Counted from the stretch's first letter, positions 3,283-13,831 are shown. The stretch is DNA of 21,822 nucleotides from a virus (IMGVR_UViG_3300035698_000775:1-21822); one strand, 5' to 3'. Program-made: numbers and translations. Notes: generated from the letters alone by a model not told the origin.

Positions 3283-3306
3283 TCAATGAAAATGCTCATA
3301 ATTTAT

Positions 3307-3328
3307 AGGAGTTTTATTATGGCAACTT
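3307..3328 (+). repeat. Shared translation-start segment, copy 1
   Basis: AGGAGTTTTATTATGGC, then one variable base, then ACTT matches 12707-12728 at 21 of 22 bases. It includes the ribosome binding site, spacer, start codon and first codons of the beta-helix gene. Confidence 0.75.
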
Positions 3329-4224
3329 ATGTATCGAAATTAGATAGGGTGAGTTCAGCGAATTTTCGTGAGAACGCAAATAGGGCTGGAATTACAGAAA
3401 TGCAGAATACAGGCAGGACATATTATGTAGATGGTAACAGGACATCATCTGGTAGTGGTGATACTTGGGAAAGTGCTTACAAGACTCTTTCTGAGGCACT
3501 TGCGGCTTCTCACGCTAATATAGCGATTGCAGGACTTCGTAATTGGGCTGGTAGAAATACTATATACTTGAAAGCAGATTCAATTACAGAGGATTTGGTT
3601 TTGTTCGCAGATAAGACAGATGTAATTGGTGTTGGTGCTAAAGACTCTTATGATATGCCTTGTATCGTTGGAAATCACGTTCCTACCAATGGCTTGAGTA
3701 CAAGATTCTTTAATGTTCAGTTTAGGGGTGCGTTGGCTTCTGGTGCGGATATTATCACTTTGGCTTCTACAAGTTCAGGTATTGTGTTTAATAACTGTCA
3801 TATCAACGGATGGTCGACTATAGCGGCAACTATAGGAATTAAAGCAACCGCATCTCCGAGGCTTAGAATTGAAAATTGCAGAATAAATGGTGCATTTAGC
3901 ACTACTGCTATTGACATACTTGCGGGTGATGCTAACGGCACTATGCTCACAGGGAATATAATCGAATCTGCTGGTGTAGGTATTAGGGTTAATTCAAGTG
4001 CAACTTGTGCTAATGAACAGGCATTTATTGATGACAATGTGATTTATGCAACTGGCTTGGTTATTGACGAAGATTCAGATAAGTTTATTGTAACTCGTAA
4101 TATGGGTATTTCAGGTGGTTCGTTTGGTGCAACCTCTCACGATGTTGGTACTGCGTTATCTGCTGGTAATATAATAACTGGCTCTGATGTAACAGGTACA
4201 GTCCCATTCGCAACGATTGCTTAA
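3319..4224 (+). CDS. Parallel beta-helix protein, putative virion appendage
   Basis: The start is set at ATG 3319 (MATYVSKLDR), not the upstream in-frame ATG 3286, because AGGAG (3307-3311) lies 7 bases before it; the product is 301 aa. After a short helical N-terminus, residues 35-70 read TYYVDGNRTSSGSGD then TWESAYKTLSEALAA, the usual opening of pectate-lyase-like right-handed beta-helix proteins. The rest (70-300) is a run of short strands rich in Ile, Val, Asn and Gly with repeating rungs such as IVFNNCHINGWS, LRIENCRINGAF and MLTGNIIES. Such folds serve as phage tailspikes or capsid-surface proteins binding or cutting polysaccharide. No catalytic residues could be assigned. It is unusual to find it between terminase and portal. 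The start segment is nearly identical to that of the 146-aa gene at 12719. The fold is well supported; the virion role is inferred. Confidence 0.7.
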   Translation: MATYVSKLDRVSSANFRENANRAGITEMQNTGRTYYVDGNRTSSGSGDTWESAYKTLSEALAASHANIAIAGLRNWAGRNTIYLKADSITEDLVLFADKTDVIGVGAKDSYDMPCIVGNHVPTNGLSTRFFNVQFRGALASGADIITLASTSSGIVFNNCHINGWSTIAATIGIKATASPRLRIENCRINGAFSTTAIDILAGDANGTMLTGNIIESAGVGIRVNSSATCANEQAFIDDNVIYATGLVIDEDSDKFIVTRNMGISGGSFGATSHDVGTALSAGNIITGSDVTGTVPFATIA

Positions 4225-9117: not shown

Positions 9118-9124
9118 TTTAATT

Positions 9125-9152
9125 GGGGGCGGTTAACCCCGCCTCCTTTTTT
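9125..9152 (+). terminator. Intrinsic terminator after the head module
   Basis: GGGGGCGG (9125-9132) pairs with CCGCCTCC (9139-9146) to give an 8-bp stem with one G-U pair and a 6-base loop, followed by TTTTTT (9147-9152). It is the only complete intrinsic terminator seen in the window. It sits between the cement gene and tail tubular A, whose ribosome binding site begins only a few bases later, so partial termination would make head proteins more abundant than tail proteins. Confidence 0.85.
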
Positions 9153-9164
9153 CTTGAGGTTATT

Positions 9165-9905
9165 ATGGCACTTACAGCAGAACAAGACTTGCACAATACA
9201 GCGTTGGGTCTTATTGGTGAATATGAGATAACTGAATCAGACACCTCGTCTAAGCAATACAAGCGTTGTGTTCAATTTTATGATATTGCAAGAAACAGAA
9301 CACTTGTTTCGCACTGGTGGAATGAGGCAGAGGAAACTGTAATAATTCCACAAGAGCAATATGGCGACATTTTTAACTATACCTACAAATACGCACTTCC
9401 ATCTGATTGCTTAAAGGCTAAAGATATTGGTGAATATAAATATGATTGGGAAGTTAAGGGTGGTTATATCTTGACAGACTATTCGAGAACGCCTGCAACG
9501 TGGACTGCTGGTACGGTGTATATTGCTGGACAGTATGTAAGTTTAAGTGATATTACTTATCGATGCAATGTTAGCCATACTTCTGCAACTGCGACAAGTC
9601 CTGCGACTGACGTTGTAACTTGGACAACTGCTGGCGGTGATTACAATGTAATAGATTTTAGTTATATCAAAGAGCTTACGGATGTGTCTTTGTTCTCTCC
9701 AATGTTATATCAGGCTATTGCTTATAGATTAGCAATACTGGTAGTAGTGCCATTGACGGGCGATATGGGTAATAAGGGCAGTTTATTGCAAGAGTACAAT
9801 CAAATAGTAATGCCTCAAGCGAGAAGTATAGACGCTATGCAGGGTAAACCTAAAAAACTTATTGTAAGTCCAAATTCTTGGCGTAGAAGCAGAAATTTTG
9901 GTTAA
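9165..9905 (+). CDS. Tail tubular protein A (T7 gp11-like) with CBM-like insert
   Basis: Start ATG 9165 has GAGG at 9156-9159, 5 bases upstream; an in-frame start at 9123 would overlap the terminator and is rejected. The 246-aa product fits the podoviral tubular A family: EQDLHNTALGLIGEYEI (6-22), CVQFYDIARNRTLVSHWWN (35-53), YKYALPSDCLKAK (74-86), a C-terminal SPMLYQAIAYRLAILVVVPL helix and a PNSWRRSRNFG end. It would form the ring that joins portal to tail. Between the conserved halves, about residues 110-155 read like a CBM5/12 chitin-binding-type module: WTAGTVYIAGQYV, then YRCNVSHTS, ending in VVTWT. A similar segment is found in tubular B. The family call is strong; the binding role of the insert is inferred. 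Confidence 0.83.
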   Translation: MALTAEQDLHNTALGLIGEYEITESDTSSKQYKRCVQFYDIARNRTLVSHWWNEAEETVIIPQEQYGDIFNYTYKYALPSDCLKAKDIGEYKYDWEVKGGYILTDYSRTPATWTAGTVYIAGQYVSLSDITYRCNVSHTSATATSPATDVVTWTTAGGDYNVIDFSYIKELTDVSLFSPMLYQAIAYRLAILVVVPLTGDMGNKGSLLQEYNQIVMPQARSIDAMQGKPKKLIVSPNSWRRSRNFG

Positions 9906-9917
9906 AAGGACAATGAA

Positions 9918-10343
9918 ATGAAGAAAATACTAATGGTTTTGTCGATATTGTGTTTGACTGCAATAGCATTAGGCGCAACTGCGGCAACGTACAATAATTG
10001 GATAACCAGTAGAGGGACTTTTAGAGTTAGAAAGGTTGTATTTGGTGCGGTATCTGCATCTGAAACTGCTACATTTGTTTGGGACGGAAGTGTCAACAGG
10101 ATAGTAGTTGATATAACCGGAACTGATGCTGATGGCGATATAACAATTTCTGATACCTCTGGCGTTAATTATGTAAATTGGGAAAATAAGCTTGGTTCAG
10201 GCGACATTGATTATATTGTAAACGCTGTTGATGCAAGCGCTAACGTTTACGGCGGGCCTCCGACAAGTGGAACTCACACTATTACAATGACTGACTGTGC
10301 TGACTTAACAGCGGCTACGTTCTATATTTACTGCGATAGGTAA
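9918..10343 (+). CDS. Signal-peptide beta-rich protein between tail genes
   Basis: This 141-aa protein starts at ATG 9918 with AAAGGA (9905-9910), 7 bases upstream; an ATG at 9913 stops at once. The N-terminus is a textbook Sec signal: MKK, the hydrophobic core ILMVLSILCLTAIALGA (4-20) and an A-T-A-A cleavage region around 20-23. No lipobox is evident. The mature part (24-141) is Thr/Asp/Val-rich with alternating strands (RKVVFGAVSASETATFVWD, IVVDITGTDADGDITISD, HTITMTDCADL, ATFYIYCDR), resembling a small jelly-roll. Two cysteines, in DCADL and YCDR, could form a disulfide outside the cytoplasm. A secreted product is unexpected in a tail cluster; it could be an envelope-located or released phage factor, or the N-terminus could be a membrane-active virion segment. 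Function is not recognised. Confidence 0.65.
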   Translation: MKKILMVLSILCLTAIALGATAATYNNWITSRGTFRVRKVVFGAVSASETATFVWDGSVNRIVVDITGTDADGDITISDTSGVNYVNWENKLGSGDIDYIVNAVDASANVYGGPPTSGTHTITMTDCADLTAATFYIYCDR

Positions 10344-10345
10344 CA

Positions 10346-12706
10346 ATGGGTACAAAGATAATTAAAAACTCCTGCAATGCAGGTATATTATCAGAGAAGC
10401 TATCTGGGCGTACTGACCTATCTAAGTATTACAATGGCTGTTCGCAGATAGTGAATGGTATATGCTTACCTCAAGGTGGTATTATTAAGCGTAGTGGCAC
10501 TGAATTCATTGCTAAAGCAAAAGAGTTTATGCCTTGGGCAAAGAGTACGATATATCCGATAGGCATATTGATTTCGAGTGATAGTAATTATTATTATTGC
10601 AATGTGGCTCATACTTCCCTTGCAACTACACTTGCCGCGCAAATAATTGCTAATCCTACTTATTGGACTTTGGTCTCTGACACTGACGATGGAACGAAAA
10701 TAAAGATGTTTGGATTTGAGTTCTCTACTGACGATGTTCATACCTTAGAGTTTGGTACACGTTATATGAGAGTTTACAAATCTGGTGCAAGAGTATTTGA
10801 AACTGCACAGAGTATCATAGATATAACGCTATCAACGACAGACCCAGTAAGCGTAGAATTGACAGGACACGGCTATTTAACTGGCTATACTATTAAGTTT
10901 ACTGATGTAGGTGGTACTGACGAATTAGACGATAAAGAATATATTGTCATTAAGACTGATGATGATAATTTTACGTTATACGACACTGATAGTAGTGATT
11001 TTACAACTTGGACATCTGGTGGTACAACTAAAAAGGTCTACGAAATAACAACTCCATATTCGATAGATGACGTTTTTGAATTACACAAGACTCAGTCTGC
11101 CGATGTTATGTATATTGCACATGAAGACCACTACCCTAATCAGTTATCAAGATTGGGCGATTCTAATTGGACTTTAGCTGATGCGGCAATAACTAACGGG
11201 CCGTTCTTGTCAGAGAATACAGACGCATTAGGAATTCTTACATTTAAAACAGCGACAGTTCCGGTTTTAAAGTATTCAGTTGTCGGTGTAACTGGCACAT
11301 TAACGGCAAGTGGTACAGTTGATGGCGTTGCGAATGCTCCGTTCTTAGACGCTCACGTTGGCTCATTATGGGCGTTGAATCATTCAAGGAAAGACAACAA
11401 TACTTCTACGCCGGATAATGTTACAAATGCAGCTCCAACTACATTCACAAACGCAATAAGAATAAAAGGCAATTTTGCGTTTAAGATAACAGAATTTGTT
11501 GCTGGTACTGATTCTGCAAAGCTATGGCGAAAAGAGGGGAACGGAGAGTGGACAGAGTATGAAACTTTCCTTAGTGCAACGAGTTATTCGTCAACTGAAA
11601 CAGTTAATGATACATATTACGCATTTACCGTTTCAGTAAATACTATGGTTGGCAACTTAACAGCAAAAGAACAACTTAATAAAGGTGTGGTTAAAATAAC
11701 TGCCGTTACAAGTAGTGTATTAGTAACAGTAGAAGTAATGACAGCAGTTTATAATGAGGACGTTGTTGCGGCAAGTTATGACTCAGCAACCTCTATGTGG
11801 GCTGAGGGCGCTTGGAGTGATTATAGGGGCTATCCAAAGACCGTATCATTTTACGAGGACAGACTGTATTGGGCTGGTAACACATATAAGCCACAGACAT
11901 TATGGGGTTCTGCTACTGGTGAATACCTAAGTCATTTAACAGGTAATGTGGACTCAGACGCTATCGTATTGCCTATGAACGCTAATGATATTTCGCAGAT
12001 ACAATGGATTGCCGCAAGAAAGACTATGGTAGTAGGAACGGCAAGCACAGAGTTTGTAATAAGCGCCTCTAATCCTGATGACCCATTGACAGCAGTTGAT
12101 AAGAAGTCAACTCCGCAATCATATATAGGTAGCAATAATATTCAGCCTGTCATCTTAAATAGTGGGTTATTCTATCTTCAAAGACAAGGCAAGAAACTTA
12201 ACGTAATGACATTCTCGTATGAGATAGATTCTTATAAGTCTGAGAATGCAACTATACTCACAGATGACATATTCAACAGTATTCCTACAACAATGGCAGT
12301 ACAGTTAACGCCAGACTCCTGCTTATGGATTACAAGAGAAGATGGAGTTTTGTGTTCATTCGTTTACGAGCCAGGCGAGGAAGTGTTTGCCGCTTGGTCT
12401 GAACACGTTACAGGTTCATCTTTGCTTACTCCAATAGGATTTTTTGAGAGCGTTGCTGTTGTTCACGGAACGTCTGAGGACGAGATATGGGTATCTGTTA
12501 AGAGGATTATAAATAGCGAAACAATAAGAACTATAGAAAAGTTTTACACAAGACAAATTGATAATGTAGATGACGCTATGATGATGGATTCAGCTAAGGT
12601 GGTAAGTTCAAGTTTTGATTCACAAAATATATTATTAGCCTCTGACACTATAAGGTGTAATGAGGGTTTATGTAACTCAAGTTTATGTGGCGGTGTACCC
12701 GCTTAA
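10346..12706 (+). CDS. Tail tubular protein B (T7 gp12-like), N-terminal part
   Basis: This 786-aa protein would form the tail nozzle. It opens in the family manner: NSCNAGILSEKLSGRTDLSKY (8-28, F-x-x-G-x-L-S/gRxDl), NGCSQIVNGICLPQGGIIKR (30-49), SGTEFIA. A CBM5/12-like segment follows at about 63-109 (WAKSTIYPIGILIS, YYYCNVAHTS, PTYWTLV), then FEFSTDDVHTLEFG. A small HGL-type beta domain (about 158-230: LTGHGYLTGYTIKF ... DDDNFTLYDTDSSDF) of the kind often matched to an E1 FCCH fold comes next. Then come YSIDDVFELHKTQSADVMY and, further on, KTMVVGTASTEFVIS, SYIGSNNIQPV and a WITREDGVLCSFVYEPGEE region. The family normally continues into an HLEG.TV segment, but this ORF ends in a Cys-containing tail (CNEGLCNSSLCGGVPA). 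That missing segment is in the ORF at 13172. Start spacing: 2 bases after the previous stop. Confidence 0.83.
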   Translation: MGTKIIKNSCNAGILSEKLSGRTDLSKYYNGCSQIVNGICLPQGGIIKRSGTEFIAKAKEFMPWAKSTIYPIGILISSDSNYYYCNVAHTSLATTLAAQIIANPTYWTLVSDTDDGTKIKMFGFEFSTDDVHTLEFGTRYMRVYKSGARVFETAQSIIDITLSTTDPVSVELTGHGYLTGYTIKFTDVGGTDELDDKEYIVIKTDDDNFTLYDTDSSDFTTWTSGGTTKKVYEITTPYSIDDVFELHKTQSADVMYIAHEDHYPNQLSRLGDSNWTLADAAITNGPFLSENTDALGILTFKTATVPVLKYSVVGVTGTLTASGTVDGVANAPFLDAHVGSLWALNHSRKDNNTSTPDNVTNAAPTTFTNAIRIKGNFAFKITEFVAGTDSAKLWRKEGNGEWTEYETFLSATSYSSTETVNDTYYAFTVSVNTMVGNLTAKEQLNKGVVKITAVTSSVLVTVEVMTAVYNEDVVAASYDSATSMWAEGAWSDYRGYPKTVSFYEDRLYWAGNTYKPQTLWGSATGEYLSHLTGNVDSDAIVLPMNANDISQIQWIAARKTMVVGTASTEFVISASNPDDPLTAVDKKSTPQSYIGSNNIQPVILNSGLFYLQRQGKKLNVMTFSYEIDSYKSENATILTDDIFNSIPTTMAVQLTPDSCLWITREDGVLCSFVYEPGEEVFAAWSEHVTGSSLLTPIGFFESVAVVHGTSEDEIWVSVKRIINSETIRTIEKFYTRQIDNVDDAMMMDSAKVVSSSFDSQNILLASDTIRCNEGLCNSSLCGGVPA

Positions 12707-12728
12707 AGGAGTTTTATTATGGCTACTT
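12707..12728 (+). repeat. Shared translation-start segment, copy 2
   Basis: AGGAGTTTTATTATGGC, then one variable base, then ACTT, identical to 3307-3328 at 21 of 22 bases. It supplies the ribosome binding site and start of the 146-aa gene. A shorter related stretch, TTATTATGGCA, occurs at the tubular A start (about 9160-9170). Confidence 0.75.
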
Positions 12729-13159
12729 GGCCTGCAAATTCAGACACCGACTGGAATACTAAGATGCTGGCGTATCTTGCGATTGAACACAATACAGATG
12801 GAACTCACAAGGACGCTGTTAAAAGTCCATTCAGTGCATTAACATTAAATGACTCTGAATCTAATGCGATGTTAAAGGCTCACGCTTATTTGGCTGCGAC
12901 AGATGGGTTTATTCACGTTAATACTGTTAGCACAGACGGTAAGGTATTGCGGGGATATATTGGAGCAACAACTGACCCAGCGGGTGCGGGTTCTTTGGTG
13001 CAAGTTCACGTTAACGAGGGTTCTGGCCTTAAATACGAATCTATCAGTTTTTCTGTAGCTAAAGATGAATATTTTGAGATTACATACGATGGAACTCAAG
13101 CACCAAGTATTTTCTGGCGTTCAGTTGGAACGTTATCATCGCCAGTAGACCAAGACTAA
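12719..13159 (+). CDS. Beta-rich structural-type protein inserted between tubular B parts
   Basis: This 146-aa protein has AAAGGAG (12705-12711) 7 bases before its ATG. The N-terminus, MATWPANSDTDWNTKMLAYL then AIEHNTDGTHKD (about 1-32), resembles the short helix that begins many phage tail or head fibre proteins (D-W-N ... H-N-x-D-G-T-H-K). Residues 55-146 are strand-rich and look like a compact jelly-roll: GFIHVNTVSTDGKVLRGYIG, SLVQVHVNEGSGLKYESISF, EYFEITYDGTQAPSIFWRSV. Such domains serve as receptor-binding or decoration units, but no specific family was recognised. It lies exactly between the two ORFs that together make a normal tubular B, in the same reading frame as both, and its start region copies that of the beta-helix gene. 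It may be a mobile appendage cassette. Function inferred only. Confidence 0.6.
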   Translation: MATWPANSDTDWNTKMLAYLAIEHNTDGTHKDAVKSPFSALTLNDSESNAMLKAHAYLAATDGFIHVNTVSTDGKVLRGYIGATTDPAGAGSLVQVHVNEGSGLKYESISFSVAKDEYFEITYDGTQAPSIFWRSVGTLSSPVDQD

Positions 13160-13171
13160 ACAGGAATCGAA

Positions 13172-13831
13172 ATGGCAGATTTAATTATATATCTACAAAA
13201 TCACGGATATTCTGAAAGTGATTCTATATATGTTTCGTGGCTTGATGCTAATTATTATGTCAGGGATATAGATGAGGATTCTTTTAAAATCTCATCAACA
13301 GATGACGACCTTAACTTTGTTACGTTCACAACAACTGTAACAACTGGCTACGTTAGAGAAGTTGACTTAGCTGGCGGAACAACTACCATTTCTAACCTTG
13401 ACCACTTAGAGGGCGAAACAGTAAAGGTTGTTTCCGGCGGTGAAATTGTTGCAACAGAAGAAGTTTCTGGCGGTGAAATAACTATAAGCTCTGATTTGTA
13501 TTCCTATCAAGTTGGCTTGCCCTATACAATGAAAATTAAGACTACAAGGCTTGAGTTAGCGCAATCACCAACTACTACACAGTCAAAGATTAAGAGGATT
13601 ACAGAAGTTGATATAAGATACTTGAAAAGTGTTGGTGGTAAGGCTGGGCAGGAATATGGTGGTACAGAATACTTGCAAAATTTGGATTGTGAGTTTAGCG
13701 ATAAATCAAAAGATGTTAATAGGCTCAATAGTGGAGGCTTTGACCCTGACGCATATCTTATCTGTAAATCGGAAGACCCTTATCCGTTTACGCTAATAGT
13801 ATTTATGGCAGAATTGGATGTAACACAATGA
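13172..13831 (+). CDS. Tail tubular protein B, detached C-terminal part
   Basis: This 219-aa ORF starts at ATG 13172 with AGGAA (13162-13166), 5 bases upstream. Residues 4-62 form an HGL-type beta domain like the one in the larger tubular B ORF (LIIYLQNHGYSESDSIYVSW, YVRDIDEDSFKIS). Residues 74-125 carry the tubular B C-terminal hallmark: SNLDHLEGETVKVVSGGEIV, VSGGEITIS and YQVGLPYTMKIKT. About 139-160 read KIKRITEVDIRYLKSVGGKA, and the C-terminus ends in FDPDAYLICKSEDPYPFTLI, again typical of the end of tubular B. It therefore looks like the detached C-terminal half of the nozzle, made as a separate protein. It overlaps the next gene by 4 bases (ATGA). The assignment rests on motif recall; a profile search would settle it. 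Confidence 0.72.
   Translation: MADLIIYLQNHGYSESDSIYVSWLDANYYVRDIDEDSFKISSTDDDLNFVTFTTTVTTGYVREVDLAGGTTTISNLDHLEGETVKVVSGGEIVATEEVSGGEITISSDLYSYQVGLPYTMKIKTTRLELAQSPTTTQSKIKRITEVDIRYLKSVGGKAGQEYGGTEYLQNLDCEFSDKSKDVNRLNSGGFDPDAYLICKSEDPYPFTLIVFMAELDVTQ

Follow-up and report, generated by a model that had tools for sequence, protein, structure and literature searches.

The window, the whole 21,822-nucleotide stretch of DNA that was analysed, is a virus record of 21.8 kb whose genes are ordered as in podoviruses. ORFs resembling those for terminase, portal and capsid, identified by visual inspection and position, are followed by a gp11-type adaptor gene, the nozzle, a GNAT-like gene, a gp14-like gene and two long ORFs. 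The adaptor gene (9123-9905) matches phrog_394, its position fitting a nozzle hexamer that would lie below the adaptor, and the gp14-like gene downstream of the nozzle matches the Pfam family T7_gp14. The nozzle locus comprises three ORFs (Table 1), closed by TAA, TAA and TGA and lying in one frame. An earlier note described them as tail tubular protein B split in two by an intervening 146-aa gene, here called M, and the elements it read from the sequence are present. M has its own ribosome binding site, AAGGAG, 7 nt upstream of its start, and AGGAA lies 5 nt upstream of the start of the 219-aa ORF. The HLEG...GLPYT segment is missing from the 786-aa ORF and found in the 219-aa ORF, where it is preceded by a further HG-type domain containing an NHGY (‘HG’) stretch.

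Table 1. Features of the nozzle locus; positions are those of the window except in the last row.
Feature	Position	Strand	Description	Basis
Nozzle N-half, 786 aa	10346..12706	+	three N-terminal platform strands, beta-propeller with tip domain, C-terminal tail	phrog_376, PDB 8ck1, AF2
N-half tail, residues 751-786, ending LASDTIRCNEGLCNSSLCGGVPA	12596..12703	+	in split members only; opens the cassette	
Shine-Dalgarno AAGGAG of middle gene	12706..12711	+	overlaps the N-half stop codon	sequence
Middle gene M, 146 aa	12719..13159	+	putative modular tail-fibre/spike-like appendage	anchor common to 14 split contigs; relatives’ domains
N-terminal anchor of M, ~35 aa, MATWPANSDTDWNTKMLAYLAIEHNTDGTHK	12719..12823	+	conserved; helix 10-26 predicted, low confidence	
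C-terminal domain of M	12854..13156	+	variable; predicted C1q/TNF-like jelly roll	
Nozzle C-half, 219 aa	13172..13831	+	HG head, putative fibre dock, six platform strands	phrog_376, PDB 8ck1, AF2
C-half head, residues 1-66, NHGY/HG type	13172..13369	+	cassette part; missing in close unsplit relatives	
Putative fibre-dock segment	13370..13546	+	six strands in AF2 model; mostly moves with the cassette	mosaic pattern
C-terminal platform part, six strands	13577..13828	+	beyond the exchanged block	AF2, mosaic pattern
74-76-aa gene of relatives	L067:8742-8969, L119:9723-9950, L128:10217-10441, L133:9842-10069, L217:7771-8001		conserved, between M and C-half	

The earlier note also took the shared frame as a clue to the history of the locus. 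The frame is indeed common to the three ORFs of the window, but this is coincidental, as it is not conserved in relatives: the start positions modulo 3 are 0,0,1 in L001 and 2,0,1 in L128. The shared frame as the trace of one former ORF is rejected on this ground.

Other features of the window lie outside the split itself. Between the adaptor and nozzle genes, positions 9918-10343 encode a 141-aa protein with a signal-like N-terminus; this second variable slot holds a homologue in L002 and other genes in further relatives, among them one for a LamG-domain protein in L001. The terminase-like gene is immediately followed by 3286-4224, which encodes a 312-aa repetitive beta-helix-like protein with no Pfam or PHROG match; G003 and G001 also have genes with a similar start close to their terminase-like gene. 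A carbohydrate-binding-like insert with a Y.C..H motif occurs both in the adaptor (9498-9593; CBM_5_12, E 2e-7) and in the nozzle N-half (10522-10695), the latter copy being missing in four aligned relatives. A 147-aa ORF at 775-1218 contains an AHAHAHAH repeat stretch.

Profile and fold comparisons confirm that the 786-aa and 219-aa products are consecutive parts of one nozzle family and that their joint fold is complete. Against phrog_376 (tail protein), the 786-aa product covers profile positions 57-552 of 712 (E 5e-122), where its match ends, and the 219-aa product covers positions 556-709 (E 4e-27). Against PDB 8ck1, the ‘Tail Nozzle’ of the Carin 1 phage and the single close relative with a solved structure, the N-half maps to residues 12-589 and the C-half to residues 672-823. 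In line with the earlier note, the 786-aa product does not make a complete nozzle by itself, and the 219-aa product is a member of this family rather than of an unrelated one. A Pfam search of the 219-aa half gave no match, which makes it an annotation trap. A T7 gp12-type nozzle is a single polypeptide; here there are two ORFs with a gene between them, and the locus therefore represents a split variant of the phrog_376 nozzle family.

Because the three window ORFs are in the same frame, the locus could be read through and folded as one chain with AF2, TAA being read as Gly. The mean pLDDT of the resulting model is 74, and most positions within residues 120-700 and 1010-1160 exceed 85. Residues 1-1161 superpose on 8ck1 with a Z of 39.5 (2.4 A over 647 residues) and on T7 gp12 (9jyz) with a Z of 27.4 (3.2 A over 542 residues); this fold comparison was substituted for an hhalign mapping to T7 gp12, which gave no usable match at so great a distance. 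In T7 gp12, N-terminal platform strands are followed by the propeller with its tip, the fibre dock and the C-terminal platform; the dock joins propeller to platform, and three of the nine platform strands are N-terminal (PMC6702177). In the model, the C-half comprises six short strands (1012-1066) and then six long ones (1082-1160). With domain borders taken from this strand order, not from residue-level mapping to T7, the break would fall at the propeller-dock link, and the C-half would hold the dock and six platform strands. The N-tail and C-head have pLDDT values below 50, and the anchor of M is also not reliably modelled. Because the AF2 alignment placed residues ~707 onwards of the N-half rows in the C region, tail and head are uninterpretable in the model, which is equally uninformative on contacts of M with the nozzle.

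Both core parts lie in one ORF at 221 of 232 distinct loci and in two ORFs at 11, including the window (L068), a proportion that is not an unbiased frequency, the search having been seeded with the window’s own family. Split loci were identified on 14 contigs, 11 of which were seen complete; contig ends truncate L118, L119 and L121, which retain the N-half together with the middle gene. In all 14, the N-half stops at the same point, and the gene that follows begins with a shared motif. Many metagenomes have yielded contigs with this arrangement, their proteins being 40-55% identical, and it is therefore neither a chance event nor an assembly error. An apparent split of another kind in L004/L066 (667+577 aa, directly abutting) was excluded from the count. 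Searches of openly accessible literature gave no earlier report of a split nozzle.

Comparison with relatives suggests that the middle gene encodes a modular tail-fibre/spike-like appendage. Conservation is confined to its first ~35 residues, and the remainder is unrelated between phages; a conserved N-terminal anchor with an exchangeable C-terminal domain is the pattern that marks modular RBPs. On the same anchor, L118 and L121 carry a pectate-lyase-like tailspike, L067 a phrog_3484 tail-fibre segment and L127 a minor-tail/C1q-like segment, which bears out the proposal of the earlier note that the middle protein is an appendage. In the window, residues ~46-146 are weakly predicted to form a C1q/TNF-like jelly roll (Z 7.7, near background). 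Viral structural hits of this domain include C1q-like and tail-fibre proteins, and two genes of contig L136 carry the domain behind different N-termini. The complete M product had no match in Pfam, in PHROGs or, by tblastn, among known phages, and its anchor none in Pfam or PHROG. A profile built from the anchors of 12 split contigs had a single site in each of these contigs; the anchor was also found in L217, and the profile had no site in the records of six close unsplit relatives (L122, L065, L123, L124, L130 and L004). M as the sole spike is unsupported: at least one split phage, G003, encodes a separate pectate-lyase tailspike elsewhere, and the appendage therefore need not be the only spike.

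Identity patterns along the locus indicate that the transferred unit is wider than the middle gene; it appears to comprise the 36-aa N-tail, the appendage gene, the 66-aa C-head and most of the dock strands. Tail and head are missing in close unsplit relatives and kept in split ones, among which their identity is roughly 40-70%. In unsplit L065, for example, DSGVTYD is directly joined to TVTGLGHLEGE. Split L001 and unsplit L123 are 99% identical over N-half residues 481-580 and 91% over residues 581-670, after which identity drops, reaching 71% and then 47% at residue 750; they have no common tail or head, and identity is 38% over C-half residues 67-112, then 83% and 72% in the platform. The block is cleanly missing in close unsplit relatives between flanks that are 99% and 83% identical. 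Between L001 and L217, N-half residues 1-670 are 28-39% identical and residues 671-750 are 43-48% identical, followed by the tail at 67%, the head at 77%, the dock at 72% and the platform at 24% and 20%. Nucleotide matches between these two contigs occur only at the start of the middle gene and in the first ~300 bases of the C-half. This mosaic, together with an N core that the tree places outside the group, argues that the block entered the nozzle of another lineage in L217. The term cassette is apt because the block was gained by the nozzle of L217 and is absent as a unit in close relatives.

The suggestion of a cassette inserted into a once continuous gene is therefore supported, with amendments. 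The 221 continuous loci found among distant relatives, the gain in L217 and the absence of the block as a unit from close relatives all agree with it. Its limits shift: the middle gene belongs to the cassette, which in addition takes in 36 aa of the first ORF and 66 aa plus most of the dock of the third. The split is moreover a conserved, exchangeable state and not one insertion event peculiar to the phage of the window.

In the N-half tree as well as in the C-half tree, the unsplit L122, L065, L123 and L124 fall inside the split group, and the split members as one clade are rejected by the AU test. A single gain with later losses or recombinational replacements would fit this history. Two types of N-tail occur. 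The Cys type (the window, L001, L118, L128, L133, L134 and L217) accompanies a W-N anchor, and the Tyr type (L002, L003, L067, L117, L119 and L127) a W-G anchor; the tail of L121 is of neither type. Tail and anchor types pair in 13 of 13 cases (p 0.0006 if these are independent, with types named post hoc and a tree that gives two independent contrasts). In the Tyr type, the YGG codons of the tail contain GGAGG, the Shine-Dalgarno of M; since these codons hold the start signal of M, physical linkage alone could maintain the pairing, and the pairing may reflect such linkage.

We consider it probable that the locus is a two-part nozzle with a cassette through which recombination replaces a receptor-binding appendage along with its dock. 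The 786-aa and 219-aa proteins would assemble together, the first supplying propeller and tip and the second the dock and most of the platform. The anchor of M probably attaches at the nozzle dock, beside the new N-tail and the new C-head, and its variable C-terminal domain probably touches the cell surface. The block that begins with the N-tail, continues with appendage and C-head and takes in most of the dock appears to be exchanged between phages by recombination, so that an appendage moves with its own dock. The analysis shows homology, a complete joint fold, conservation, the strict co-occurrence of split and anchor, a modular appendage and mosaic exchange; from these we infer physical docking, receptor binding and a benefit of matching anchor and dock. 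That a transferable ‘fibre plus dock’ cassette turns the recipient nozzle into a two-protein nozzle while keeping the anchor-dock fit is a proposition for which the balance is even.

The modularity of M bears on a three-piece nozzle, in which M would be a structural or decoration part, such as a collar or seal, and not receptor-binding. The small size of M (146 aa), the position of its gene inside the nozzle gene and the separate tailspike gene found elsewhere in some split phages would suit such a part. A fixed part, however, is expected to be conserved, and in M only ~35 aa are; the rest gives way to unrelated domains, pectate-lyase tailspikes and tail-fibre C-termini among them, which leaves the structural role unlikely. 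Still less probable is that a selfish or neutral mobile element, such as a homing endonuclease or an intron-like element, broke the gene and that the split was then tolerated. The gap is variable, with the extra 74-76-aa gene in five contigs, and in L001 an endonuclease VII gene (HNH-type; PF02945, E 4e-23; L001:5084-5551) lies between the N-half and the middle gene. Yet of those split contigs in which the gap was read, L001 alone has an endonuclease there, and the window gap (12707-13171) contains none. Every split contig has the anchor, and the ~40-70% identity of tail and head is unlike a tolerated scar. Thirteen records, several of them fragments, contain no PF00078 reverse transcriptase (0/13), which speaks against a mobile element and led us to reject M as the target of a diversity-generating retroelement.

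The distinct ORFs with their own start signals might also be read as two independent parts, the 219-aa product being a separate tail protein (a paralogue or adaptor) and the 786-aa product a truncated, self-sufficient nozzle. Their consecutive, non-overlapping coverage of one family and of one solved structure, and the trees of both halves with unsplit relatives inside the split group, make this the most improbable of the readings considered.

The preferred reading, an exchangeable appendage carried with its dock, can be set beside known systems. The whole fold of the joint model is common to T7 gp12 (tail tubular protein B; 6R21, 9JYZ) and the Carin 1 nozzle (8CK1), as is the gene order, the nozzle gene being preceded by that for the gp11-type adaptor and followed by those for gp14-type and other internal virion proteins. 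The T7 and Carin 1 nozzles are one polypeptide, whereas here there are two, with a foreign gene between them and an extra 36-aa tail and 66-aa head. Epsilon15 gp12 (825 aa), L007, L044, L054 and L071 belong to the same family and carry additional residues where propeller and dock are linked, as at the break here: about 85 aa for epsilon15 gp12 and an HG-type domain for the others; unlike the split loci, they have an unbroken ORF and no inner appendage gene. The unsplit L065, L122, L123, L124 and L130 have nozzle flanks up to 99% identical to those of split members, but a continuous ORF without the anchor gene. A LamG/ConA-like lectin insert occurs in the nozzle N-half of unsplit L065, L123, L124 and L130 and of split L121; as L121 has both, the insert as a strict alternative to M is rejected.

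Modular podovirus tailspikes and RBPs (for example those of Przondovirus, PMC12692247) likewise consist of a conserved N-terminal anchor, whose fit to nozzle and gatekeeper is important, and an exchangeable C-terminal domain. To our knowledge their genes lie outside the nozzle gene. At the loci described here, in contrast, the appendage gene lies inside the nozzle gene and would move with the dock. The conserved two-chain nozzle shows where a nozzle tolerates a break, namely at the predicted propeller-dock link, and points to the segments that need to match for appendage attachment. In Klebsiella phages, a poor fit of the spike N-terminal domain to nozzle and gatekeeper is reported to be able to lower virion assembly (PMC12692247); at the loci described here, dock and appendage apparently move together in nature.
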